Positions 10,434 through 16,860 of a stretch of DNA of 19,733 nucleotides are shown here, piece after piece; positions within the stretch are counted from its first letter, which is position 1; the number at the start of each line of letters is the position of its first letter. The DNA comes from Syntrophaceae bacterium UBA7544 (GTDB lineage: Bacteria; Desulfobacterota; Syntrophia; Syntrophales; Smithellaceae): positions 4,537 through 24,269 of the forward strand of contig DLME01000004.1 of NCBI GenBank assembly GCA_002479215.1, given 5' to 3'. A model generated the notes under the pieces. It was not told the DNA's origin, did not search any database, and saw only the letters and a list, made by a program, of their open reading frames with translations. Both the position numbers and the translations under genes were made by a program.

Positions 10434-11168
10434 TTAATTAATGGCAAAGGCGCGTAAGTCATTTTTGATATAGTATTTTGCGCCGTATTTAGTTAAAAGC
10501 GTTTCCGCATCATAAAGGAATTTACGCCAGTTCACTGTTTTTTCATATTCTTTCATGTGGTTTAATTTTCCTACTTTCCAGAATCTCACATACTTGTGAG
10601 CCTTTCTAATCACAGCAAGTGCTTGAACCGGATCAATGACTGGCTCAAGGCTAACCCAAGTAAAAATGCCAGCTTTATGTGCATTTTTGAGAATTTCCAG
10701 TCGATCATTTACTGATGAGGCATTAGGTTCCCATTGTCGCCGCTTATCATCATTTATGAAACTAAGTGTGATACCAAGGTGAGTATCGGCCTTCTTCATT
10801 ATTTCAATGTCATCTTGAATTAGATCAGCACAGCCTTTTGTCAGTATTTGACTTCTCAAACCATACTTATGAACAATCTCTAAGGTTTGTCTAGTTAAGC
10901 GCTTTTTACGTTCAAGTGGTTGATAAGGGTCACTTAGAAAACAAAATAGAATGCGCCTCGAATCGCCTCGTAATTTCCATGCGTCTTTTTCAAAAAGTTC
11001 AACGACTCTTTGTCTTGGCTCAGCTTTTGCGTGCCATTTTTCACCGGTCGTACGCATACAAGCGGGCGCATAGCAATACCGGCATCCATGGGTGCATCCA
11101 CGATAAAGATTGCACGCCAGTTCGGAGTATTCCCTTGCGCGACCTTTGGGTTCGTAGACGACGTTCAT
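10434..11168 (-). CDS. SPL-like radical SAM protein, partner of TcmP
   Basis: A 244-residue radical S-adenosylmethionine protein. CTHGCRYC (Cys25, Cys29, Cys32) is the CxxxCxxC cluster-binding loop, in the context NLYRGCTHGCRYCYAP that resembles the spore photoproduct lyase/Rv2578c-like group; extra Cys19 and Cys37 flank it. ILTKG, LSFIND and SLEPVID follow as later barrel strands. It is shorter than true spore photoproduct lyases (about 340 residues). The ATG overlaps the stop of the upstream tcmP-like gene as ATGA, so the two are translationally coupled. From recall, TcmP proteins are named for such three-Cys partners. The substrate is unknown; nucleic-acid repair or modification is a guess from the family. 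A terminator-like hairpin (10403-10428) lies just beyond the stop. Confidence 0.85.
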   Translation of the reverse strand: MNVVYEPKGRAREYSELACNLYRGCTHGCRYCYAPACMRTTGEKWHAKAEPRQRVVELFEKDAWKLRGDSRRILFCFLSDPYQPLERKKRLTRQTLEIVHKYGLRSQILTKGCADLIQDDIEIMKKADTHLGITLSFINDDKRRQWEPNASSVNDRLEILKNAHKAGIFTWVSLEPVIDPVQALAVIRKAHKYVRFWKVGKLNHMKEYEKTVNWRKFLYDAETLLTKYGAKYYIKNDLRAFAIN

Positions 11169-12259
11169 TTGTTATCTCCATTGAAAAGTTCAATTGTTTC
11201 TGCGTCTAGCTTTCGCCATGCATCATATGAAATATGGAACTTTTGCTTTGGCAACTTATTGGTTTTGACTAATGTGCTCAAAGCATCCCTTGCATGTGCT
11301 GGAAGTATACCATTTTGTAATACAAAAAGATAAATATCTTTGTTTGTTTTTAAATGATTTTCAAGCAACTGCTTTTCAAGTTCTTTTTCAAAAAATGCAA
11401 TCTTAGTAGGTTTGTCAAATTCTGAGAATAGCGATGGTTGTACAGGATCAATACCATCTTTATCGATATCAAAATTTGCATCTCCGCCACGACGCCATGC
11501 AACTTGCAGAAATTTATCTATGCCAAGGGGGTGACTGGAACCAAAAACGAGGCCATATACATTTGCACCCTTCTTAATTGAAAATGAGCCTAAGAAATAT
11601 TGCAAACCTTCCGGTATCCAACGTCGATAAGCATTAGCTAAAATGCGATGCACATTGGTTCCATTCATACTTGAAAGATCATCGTCGTTAGCAGGTACAT
11701 ACTTTCTAATTTCAGGTTGATCTTTAAACCTATTAATTATGGCGGATGAAATAAAAAATATAAAGTCAGTCATGGGCAGTCGAACAATGTTTTGAAAGAT
11801 AGATTGTGTGATTTGTTGTACACCGCTTTGATCCAAAAATAAAAGGTTTGCGGTTTTGGTATTCATAAGGGGTTTCCATTTGTCGAATGCATGATGAAAA
11901 TCCTTCTGACTCGATATAAATTCAACTTGTTGCAAAGAAGCCCTTTGCTCTTCAATACACTTAGATAAAGACTTAAATTTATCAGAATCATATTCATTAA
12001 AATAAACTATGATTTTTACTTTCAGGTTGTTGTTTTGATGCAAAGCCTTGCAAATTTCATCACAGGTAATAAGTGGGCTCCCTGAATTACCATTAATATC
12101 GATACCTGGACCGGCAAAAAAATCAAAAATCTGCAATCTATCTATATATGATGCAGGGATGAAAACAGGAAGCCACTCACGTAAATATTCTCTATATAGT
12201 TCCAGCTTGTCTTGTGTGCTTTCGTCAAAAGGCTTTAAATGAAGATCGTGTCTAGGCAT
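11165..12259 (-). CDS. tcmP: Three-Cys-motif partner protein, TcmP family
   Basis: A 364-residue protein with the layout of the TcmP family. The N-terminus begins MPRHDLHLKPFDESTQDKLE, followed by FDFFAGPGID (45-54), which looks like an S-adenosylmethionine-binding motif I, then FNEYD (87-91) and FLDQSG (141-146) at the place of a catalytic loop. The family usually has FxDPxG-like residues there, so QSG is a variant. A small predicted helical or winged C-terminal domain (about 300-360) ends the protein. AAAGGA precedes the ATG by 8-9 nt. Its base composition is clearly more AT-rich than dapA and ftcD, suggesting acquired DNA. It is coupled to the downstream radical SAM gene. The biochemical role of the family is not established as far as I know. 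Confidence 0.8.
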   Translation of the reverse strand: MPRHDLHLKPFDESTQDKLELYREYLREWLPVFIPASYIDRLQIFDFFAGPGIDINGNSGSPLITCDEICKALHQNNNLKVKIIVYFNEYDSDKFKSLSKCIEEQRASLQQVEFISSQKDFHHAFDKWKPLMNTKTANLLFLDQSGVQQITQSIFQNIVRLPMTDFIFFISSAIINRFKDQPEIRKYVPANDDDLSSMNGTNVHRILANAYRRWIPEGLQYFLGSFSIKKGANVYGLVFGSSHPLGIDKFLQVAWRRGGDANFDIDKDGIDPVQPSLFSEFDKPTKIAFFEKELEKQLLENHLKTNKDIYLFVLQNGILPAHARDALSTLVKTNKLPKQKFHISYDAWRKLDAETIELFNGDNK

Positions 12260-13281: not shown

Positions 13282-13788
13282 TTACGATTTGTTTTGTGAC
13301 GCCAATGACTTGAGATAATCGATTAGCATTAACGTGTCTGTTGCCACTAAACGGCCGATCGGTCCCGTACTGTAAACGGCGCCTTCGATGGTGCCACCCG
13401 GTTTGATAATGAAGCCGGTTGCATGGAGGAACAATTTCTTATCATCGTAGAAGGCCCCGGTCATACCGGCAAATTCTTTTGCATCCATGCCGTATGCCAA
13501 CGGGAAGGTCAGTTTACGGCGTTCAACCATCTTTTGGGCATCTTCCAGTTTATCCACCGAGGCTCCGATAATTTTGATGCCTTTTTCACTGAATTCGTTA
13601 AGACGTCCCTGAAAATCAGCTAACTGCTGATGGCAGAATGGTCACCAGCGTCCCCGGTAAATCAGCAAGACACACCAGGTTTTGCCGTCCTTCTCGGGCA
13701 GGGTCAACGCTGTGCCGTCGGTAAGCTTGAATTCCATCTTTGGGAAAAGGTCGCCACTGTCAAATTTCTTCACTTCTGTCTGAGCCAT
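13282..13788 (-). CDS. Selenocysteine-containing peroxiredoxin-like protein (UGA read-through)
   Basis: An AhpC/TSA-type thiol peroxidase of 168 residues if the in-frame TGA at 13642-13644 is decoded as selenocysteine. Before it: MAQTEVKKFDSGDLFPKMEF and VLLIYRGRW. After it, without a frame change: PFCHQQLADFQ, IKIIGASVDK and TGFIIKPGGTIEGAVYSTG. The family's usual motif is YRGxWCPxC, so the TGA replaces exactly the first, peroxidatic cysteine, giving a U49-P-F-C52 redox pair. A SECIS-like hairpin lies 16 nt downstream. AGGAGG sits a few nt before ATG 13788; an in-frame ATG at 13857 has no family match upstream. Standard gene callers will split this into two fragments. SelA, SelB and tRNA-Sec genes are not in the window. 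It would detoxify peroxides, presumably in the cytoplasm. Confidence 0.9.
13615..13631 (-). promoter_or_regulatory. Bacterial SECIS element of the selenoprotein gene
   Basis: On the mRNA, AUCAGC pairs perfectly with GCUGAU around the loop AGUUA, the loop starting 16 nt after the UGA. A lower CUG/CAG stem extends it below a small internal loop. The second loop base is G. Bacterial SECIS rules as I know them ask for a G in the first two loop positions and a spacing of about 16-37 nt, so this fits. Confidence 0.75.
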
Positions 13789-13931
13789 AATTTCCCTCCT
13801 TTGCGCATCGCTTGTTTTAAAAAATTCCTTCCAAATACAGTGCCGCAGGTGGAGCATTTATTTCTGGTGAGTTCGGCTCTATTTTACCTACTTATCCTCA
13901 ACTTTCAGGTCAGAATTGAAGTGATATTACC

Positions 13932-16451: not shown

Positions 16452-16745
16452 TCATTTCAGAAAAATCGCTTCGCCTTCAACGAACAACTTTCCTCTTGAG
16501 AGCTCATTAATGATGACATTTAGCGTAGTAATTTCGTCATTGAAGGTAATAATTAACAAACCATGCCCCTTATTTTTATACCTCTTGACGCCTTTAGTTT
16601 TTTTTAAGATTGCCCCTATTCTAACATCTGCGTTACAATCGGCACAGCCAGATAAATTTAATTGGACAACTCTATCCTTTGCAAAAGCCATTGAAGGAAC
16701 GGCAAAACAAACAAATAATAAAATGATTTTAATAATTTTTTTCAT
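16452..16745 (-). CDS. Secreted HMA-like (MerP-type) small metal-binding protein
   Basis: A 97-residue protein. MKKIIKIILLFVCFAVPSMA followed by FA is a clean signal peptide with a likely cut after AFA (residue 22). The mature part starts KDRVVQLNLSGCADCNADV: Cys34 and Cys37 form the CxxC of a heavy-metal-associated domain at the end of the first strand, and the remaining 75 residues fit one beta-alpha-beta-beta-alpha-beta unit. A periplasmic soft-metal carrier, like MerP, is the simplest reading; a thiol-redox role cannot be excluded. GAGGAAGAG directly precedes the ATG; an in-frame ATG 16 codons earlier would spoil the signal peptide. No metal transporter or regulator lies next to it. Confidence 0.7.
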   Translation of the reverse strand: MKKIIKIILLFVCFAVPSMAFAKDRVVQLNLSGCADCNADVRIGAILKKTKGVKRYKNKGHGLLIITFNDEITTLNVIINELSRGKLFVEGEAIFLK

Positions 16746-16789
16746 CTCTTCCTCTTCAAGTGTTTTATAATTAGTAATTTGGATTTTTA

Positions 16790-16860
16790 TCATATTATCG
16801 AGGAAATAGCATTAATGATTTTGATGTGAAGTCCTGCATTTTCGTCGAGGTTGACGATTT
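16790..16860. repeat. 71-bp direct repeat, copy 1
   Basis: Matches 17708-17779 at roughly 78% with one gap. The best conserved stretch is GAAGTCCTGCATTTTCGT followed by AGGTTGACG. The two copies flank the 130-residue membrane protein gene. Neither strand of the repeat has a convincing conserved reading frame. Confidence 0.65.

Follow-up and report, generated by a model that had tools for sequence, protein, structure and literature searches.

A gene split at an in-frame UGA codon in a Syntrophales genome very probably encodes a peroxiredoxin-like UxxC selenoprotein

Introduction

Bacterial selenoproteins are named by their domain together with the motif that holds selenocysteine (Sec, U), and under this convention, as given in excerpts of PMC9312934, the combination of PF00578 with UxxC denotes the Prx-like thiol:disulfide oxidoreductase, a predicted selenoprotein. 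A PF00578 UxxC family is also listed as predicted in excerpts of PMC13188914 and PMC9312934, with WP_010940744.1 as the listed example. Selenoproteins of this kind were reported from Syntrophus aciditrophicus and Geobacter (PMC1794560, in an excerpt), and marine forms were divided into Prx-like 1, 2 and 3 (PMC2398784, likewise in an excerpt). According to a figure legend of PMC1914089, Sec does not occupy the same position in the TxxU family as in the UxxC family, and a passage of PMC1088965 terms the UxxC motif thioredoxin-like.

Here we describe a gene from Syntrophaceae bacterium UBA7544, located in a stretch of 19,733 nucleotides that was analysed as a whole (the window). The gene is cut in two by gene finders and very probably encodes one redox enzyme, with the internal stop codon read as selenocysteine. 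By the definition of PF00578 plus UxxC, and judging from its sequence, it is a member of the known, predicted Prx-like thiol:disulfide oxidoreductase kind.

Results and discussion

Gene structure and reading frame

The gene lies on the minus strand (13282..13788) as a single 168-codon frame that runs from an ATG start (13788..13786) to a TAA stop (13284..13282), and its sole interruption is the TGA at codon 49 (13642..13644), the predicted Sec codon and first residue of the UxxC motif (UPFC, in the context YRGRW-UGA-PFC). An AGGAGG six nucleotides upstream of the ATG (13795..13800, minus strand) is the likely ribosome-binding site. Listing of open reading frames under table 11 yielded 71 amino acids up to the TGA and 91 amino acids from a downstream GTG; no frameshift or second stop was found in the window's gene. 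The first-pass annotation, which had described two same-frame segments parted by TGA alone, was therefore borne out, with 168 residues on read-through. Its claim of a family match on both sides of the TGA also held: the joined protein matched PF00578 (AhpC-TSA) with 75.1 bits and PF08534 (Redoxin) with 47.6 bits, above the Pfam gathering cut-offs of 26 and 26.6, each in one stretch across the TGA. An Rfam search of the window returned nothing at gathering scores.

Conservation of the UGA codon and distribution of the gene

The gene was found in seven of the 155 genomes searched in the order (the window's own included), and all seven keep the TGA. A search of 395 genomes of the phylum, again including the window's own, gave eight matches, seven of them with TGA; the eighth covers residues 85-161 only and does not reach codon 49. 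The search of named genomes recovered 116 relative-encoding stretches, and the best 80 loci were kept, of which 30 carry TGA and 50 a Cys codon; the search patterns for the named TGA loci imposed amino acids around the motif, not codons. Taken together, the 87 loci (80 named plus the seven from the order) have TGA in 37, TGT or TGC in 50 and no other codon at this site. This alignment of UGA with Cys is a mark of bacterial selenoprotein genes, and it gives a favourable answer to the question, raised at first pass, of whether homologues have Cys or U at position 49.

Among 122 homologue proteins of at least 150 amino acids (alignment-query search, best 120 of 1471 matches listed), 105 have Cys at the site and 17 have Trp, with no other residue. 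The window's protein as query retrieved 102 proteins, only 14 of them full length (11 with Trp and three with Cys at codon 49); 86 of the 88 short entries start past the TGA, at codon 50 or later. One of the Trp proteins, P0015, is almost the same protein as that encoded by L020, a locus with TGA in its DNA, and we infer that Trp stands for TGA in the other Trp entries as well; the use of code 4 in these databases looks like an automatic choice of the gene caller. With 88 of the 102 entries short, databases often represent this branch without its active site, and curation of a dedicated model would put many annotations right.

The TGA form carries labels from Thermodesulfobacteriota, Myxococcota, Pseudomonadota, Verrucomicrobiota, Actinomycetota, Nitrospinota, Acidobacteriota, Methylomirabilota and Gemmatimonadota; these nine phyla are labels of genomes that are nearly all MAGs, and single ones may be wrong. 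For example, L039 comes from a MAG titled Bordetella parapertussis, and its gene groups with betaproteobacterial MAGs; this label looks doubtful. The gene is rare and patchy within the phylum, and it was not found in the six other genomes of the same genus that were searched, a distribution that suggests transfer and loss. A quick tree of 130 rows requires the Sec/Cys label to change at least ten times, and two of these changes are forced by well-supported branches; the branch would therefore be suitable for examining why Sec is retained or lost.

No conserved gene neighbourhood was found among the 30 TGA loci: the two largest groups of neighbouring open reading frames are frames on the gene itself, and no other group occurs in more than three loci. 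Elsewhere in the window, two adjacent genes (10434-12259, minus strand) form a pair resembling the TcmP type: one encodes a radical SAM protein that matches DUF5131 below threshold, and the product of the other has a GMT-like wHTH domain. The frame at 16452-16793 (minus strand) encodes a small protein that looks exported, carries a GCADCN motif and had no match in Pfam.

SECIS-like hairpin and codon choice

A SECIS-like hairpin (13615..13631, minus strand) starts 10 nucleotides past the TGA, with the stem strands AUCAGC (13631..13626) and GCUGAU (13620..13615) enclosing the loop AGUUA (13625..13621). The 6-bp hairpin reported at first pass is thus present, but the 16 nucleotides given as its distance separate the TGA from the loop, and the stem begins at 10. 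Taken by itself the hairpin is unremarkable: its folding z is -0.45, and among 400 synonymous recodings of the window's gene 4.8% had six of six pairs at that place and 24% had an equally good SECIS-like stem anywhere. In view of this z value and the 24% chance of an equal stem, we rejected the hairpin as stand-alone proof.

The hairpin goes beyond chance because it is conserved across the TGA loci. At least five of the six pairs form in all 37 TGA loci, the window's included, versus one of 50 Cys loci, which has exactly five; all six form in 26 of 37 and in none of 50, respectively. Mean pairing was 5.70 of six pairs in the TGA loci (synonymous null 3.81) and 2.12 in the Cys loci (null 1.96). 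Among the 34 distinct TGA sequences, 95.1% of pair cells are standard, and both-side changes occur in three of the six pairs, with compensation, for example, from G-C to A-U in L105 and from A-U to G-C in L028, L040 and L041. The covariation score and the share of paired cells were each reached by none of 500 shuffles; the number of further pair types was equalled by 145 of 500. When the partner strand was slid, no more than 50% of cells were paired and at most one pair changed on both sides, although the covariation score, 0.160 in register, was still 0.123 after a slide of one column. The outermost pair is unformed in ten of the 34 distinct rows, and its A/G-U/C association was not significant (p 0.13).

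Codon choice within the hairpin points in the same direction. Leu56 is UUA or UUG in all 35 TGA loci with this residue, versus 105 of 540 for Leu in the remainder of these genes; likewise Ala57 is GCU in 33 of 36 (62 of 500 elsewhere) and Gln55 is CAG in 36 of 36 (93 of 142 elsewhere). The Cys loci have no such excess (Leu56 UUR 14/40, Ala57 GCU 0/17, Gln55 CAG 18/30). The p-values of these comparisons (about 1e-24) are overstated, as the loci are related. We read the hairpin codons as chosen for RNA reasons, which is the strongest sign for selenocysteine at the predicted site. Conserved hairpin, covariation and codon signature together correspond to the SECIS stem-loop of a bacterial selenoprotein gene.

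Selenocysteine machinery

The presence of selA, selB, selD and selC in the same genome had been named at first pass as a check on recoding, and all four were found. The window's genome (93.8% complete) has matches to selA (600 bits), selB (335 bits, running off a contig end) and selD (383 bits), and a tRNA-Sec with anticodon UCA and G73-CCA (72.8 bits). The selD match (L018, G000:C71:4292-5212) itself has an in-frame TGA, and SelD of this genome is probably a selenoprotein too.

Across genomes, selA exceeded the cut-off in 26 of the 30 genomes with the TGA form and in six of the 20 Cys genomes tested out of 50 (Fisher p 7e-5, overstated by the relatedness of the loci). Within the order, co-occurrence with selA is uninformative, as 137 of the 155 genomes have it; G088 lacks selA and G077 lacks tRNA-Sec over the cut-off, and each has the other two parts. 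Two of the four TGA genomes without selA (L033, L037) have SelB and tRNA-Sec over the cut-off. The other two, the actinomycete MAGs of L028 and L040, carry the TGA gene and its hairpin with none of selA, SelB and tRNA-Sec over the cut-off, and this is the main unexplained point against recoding. The contigs that carry these two genes are 4.1 and 6.4 kb long and were possibly mis-binned.

The conserved TGA, the hairpin, its codons and the machinery strongly support the first-pass proposal of true recoding, and UGA 49 is very probably recoded as selenocysteine and not a nonsense mutation. In the proposed mechanism, SelB carrying Sec-tRNA(Sec) would be placed by the downstream hairpin with its AGUUR loop, and the ribosome at UGA codon 49 would insert selenocysteine. 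The product would be a thioredoxin-fold, peroxiredoxin-like selenoprotein with a thioredoxin-like Sec49-x-x-Cys52 site, and we consider this explanation as a whole to be highly probable.

Active site and proposed chemistry

The TGA had been placed at the peroxidatic Cys of peroxiredoxins in the first-pass annotation, an assignment that proved wrong by three residues. In five alignments to solved peroxiredoxins, codon 49 falls on Thr and Cys52 (TGC, 13633..13635, minus strand) on the Cys of FTPVC; against L175, a TGA protein of a relative with FTPVU, codon 49 again falls on Thr and Cys52 on its Sec. When L162, a TGA protein of the Bcp type, was aligned, a gap fell inside the motif, and this comparison gives no information on the Sec position. 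The predicted Sec49 is therefore at the Thr position of PxxxTxxC, where it forms a thioredoxin-like UxxC, and Cys52 occupies the peroxidatic position. The first-pass interpretation was supported in part: recoding stood, the placement at the peroxidatic Cys did not, and the PF00578 UxxC type is already listed, as predicted (excerpts of PMC9312934 and PMC13188914).

The second residue of the motif, Cys52, and Arg146 (codon 146, 13351..13353, minus strand), which aligns with the Arg of the GR in solved peroxiredoxins, are both invariant in a 45-row alignment, and Arg146 corresponds to the conserved Arg by which peroxiredoxins are recognised. We take the PxxxTxxC motif together with the counterpart of Arg146 to be the peroxiredoxin active site. 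The Pro and Thr of this motif are absent, and Arg45 and Sec49 stand in their places.

A selenol/thiol redox function is probable for this arrangement of residues. Sec49 as selenolate would most likely attack an oxidised substrate, either a disulfide or a peroxide; the resulting intermediate would be resolved by Cys52 through a Se-S bond, and the enzyme would be returned to the reduced state by a thioredoxin-type donor. A disulfide is slightly favoured over a peroxide as the main substrate, since the protein lacks the Pro and Thr of peroxiredoxins. Some peroxidase activity would also be plausible because Cys52 and Arg146 keep their peroxiredoxin positions, and the same recoding could even serve an enzyme that is chiefly a peroxidase, with Cys52 peroxidatic and Sec49 a resolving selenol. 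The alignment of Cys52 and Arg146 with the peroxidatic Cys and GR of solved peroxiredoxins, and their invariance, are what such an enzyme would have; however, the replacement of Pro and Thr by Arg45 and Sec49, and the thioredoxin-like designation of UxxC (PMC1088965, in the passage cited above), make this possibility rather doubtful.

Alternative readings of the UGA codon

The window's genome includes a second tRNA-Sec-like gene (G000:C5:29923-30018; L002 1501-1596) that scored 59.3 bits against tRNA-Sec, has anticodon UCA with U73, and was not called by ARAGORN. Similar second tRNAs occur in L146-L154 and L156, from genomes of the same genus and family, and at least two tRNA-Sec matches (E <= 1e-9) occur in 18 of the order's 155 genomes, counting that of the window. 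U73 is present in 12 of the 13 second-type sequences that were read, the exception being L155, an ordinary G73 tRNA-Sec; two second-type tRNAs, both in G001, have the anticodon GCA. Excerpts of PMC7609411 describe selC* tRNA-Cys, some with UCA, in Syntrophobacterales and Desulfobacterales. The second tRNAs resemble this type in combining U73 with UCA or GCA, but the window's reads as 7/5 and the selC* form in those excerpts as 8/4. By its sequence features, the second UCA tRNA is perhaps a selC*-type tRNA-Cys. A selB gene adjoins the second tRNA in one of 12 stretches (L156), which is not from the window's genome.

These observations bear on a reading in which the second tRNA would insert Cys at UGA 49, either always or part of the time, to give a CxxC protein. 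The UCA anticodon and U73 of a tRNA in the very same genome, the described UCA-bearing selC* tRNA-Cys of Syntrophobacterales and Desulfobacterales (PMC7609411, in excerpts) and the commonness of Cys homologues would suit it. However, the six other genomes of the order with the TGA gene have one tRNA-Sec match (G076, G078, G088, G096, G118) or none (G077) at E <= 1e-9, with a weaker second match of 49.8 bits in G088; no second selB was found in the 10 kb around the second tRNA in the window's genome; the 7/5 form departs from the 8/4 form of selC*; and the hairpin and selA association fit Sec. We consider Cys decoding highly improbable, and the second tRNA, which does not track with the gene across the order, is not favoured as its decoder.

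A broader proposal would join these elements: the YRGxWUPxCxQQLADFQ proteins would be a separate, undescribed subfamily with a fixed coding/SECIS cassette across nine phyla, and the second tRNA would let Sec or Cys fill the UGA according to selenium supply. This combination is very unlikely; if true, the gene would carry its own means of alternating between a selenol and a thiol form of the enzyme. With two UCA-anticodon tRNA genes in the genome, the identity of the inserted residue is directly testable.

An accidental TGA in a peroxiredoxin-like pseudogene or truncated gene would be in keeping with the split of the frame under table 11, the absence of the gene from the six other same-genus genomes searched, and the damaged appearance of a relative, L104, which has two in-frame TAG codons in addition to the TGA and is a decaying copy or the product of assembly errors. 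Such a nonsense mutation is nevertheless extremely improbable, given the recurrence of this TGA at 37 loci whose labels span nine phyla, the codon and hairpin signature, the intact frame of the window's gene, and signs of purifying selection. Past the TGA, dN/dS against L101 is about 0.20 (dN 0.103, dS 0.513); in the other three comparisons, which were more distant, dS had reached saturation or could not be computed. To judge by this ratio, the gene downstream of the TGA is under purifying selection.

Translation of UGA as Trp (code 4), suggested by the 17 Trp entries among the 122 full-length proteins (best 120 of 1471 matches listed), deserves practically no credence, as the remaining 105 have Cys, TGG occurs at none of the 87 loci, three of the ten larger open reading frames of the window end in TGA, and the genome has Sec machinery.

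Comparison with known selenoprotein families

With selenocysteine insertion as the preferred reading, the described proteins nearest to the window's gene can be compared in turn. The Sec-containing peroxiredoxin PrxU (TxxU, NF040737) belongs to the same fold family by profile similarity, but its Sec lies three residues later, at the peroxidatic position, and the window's protein scored 28.5 bits against a cut-off of 270. The SelL-related redox protein (NF040769) is related by profile, with the motif region aligned, and the score was 31.9 bits against a cut-off of 120. No NCBIfam model passed its cut-off for the window's protein (best 41.7 bits of 211) or for the four branch members tested. Peroxiredoxin-like Cys proteins with YRGxWCPxC, from Alphaproteobacteria, Chloroflexota and other groups, are homologous, with CxxC at the same place and, in the named loci, about 28-48% identity; in contrast to the TGA form, they have a Cys codon, no conserved hairpin and no excess of UUR and GCU at codons 56-57.

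Two further TGA-containing AhpC-TSA genes, both without an AGUUR loop, were observed in genomes of the same order: L169 (1396-1911, minus strand) with RGFIUPYC (UxxC) and L173 (1447-1944, plus strand) with RGFSUPFA (UxxA). L169, from the one-contig genome G072, is a UxxC PF00578 protein and is perhaps the reported Syntrophus UxxC protein. Its score against the SelL model (66 bits) is higher than that of the window's protein and below the cut-off of 120.

The passages of the selenoprotein literature covered here do not name the YRGxWUPxCxQQLADFQ branch. The window's gene has in common with the Prx-like thiol:disulfide oxidoreductases the PF00578 domain, the UGA first in UxxC, occurrence in deltaproteobacterial Sec users and the existence of Cys homologues. 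Within that kind, the branch may merit a name of its own, because L169 shares only 21% identity with the window's protein across 80 residues and its predicted hairpin is of another form.
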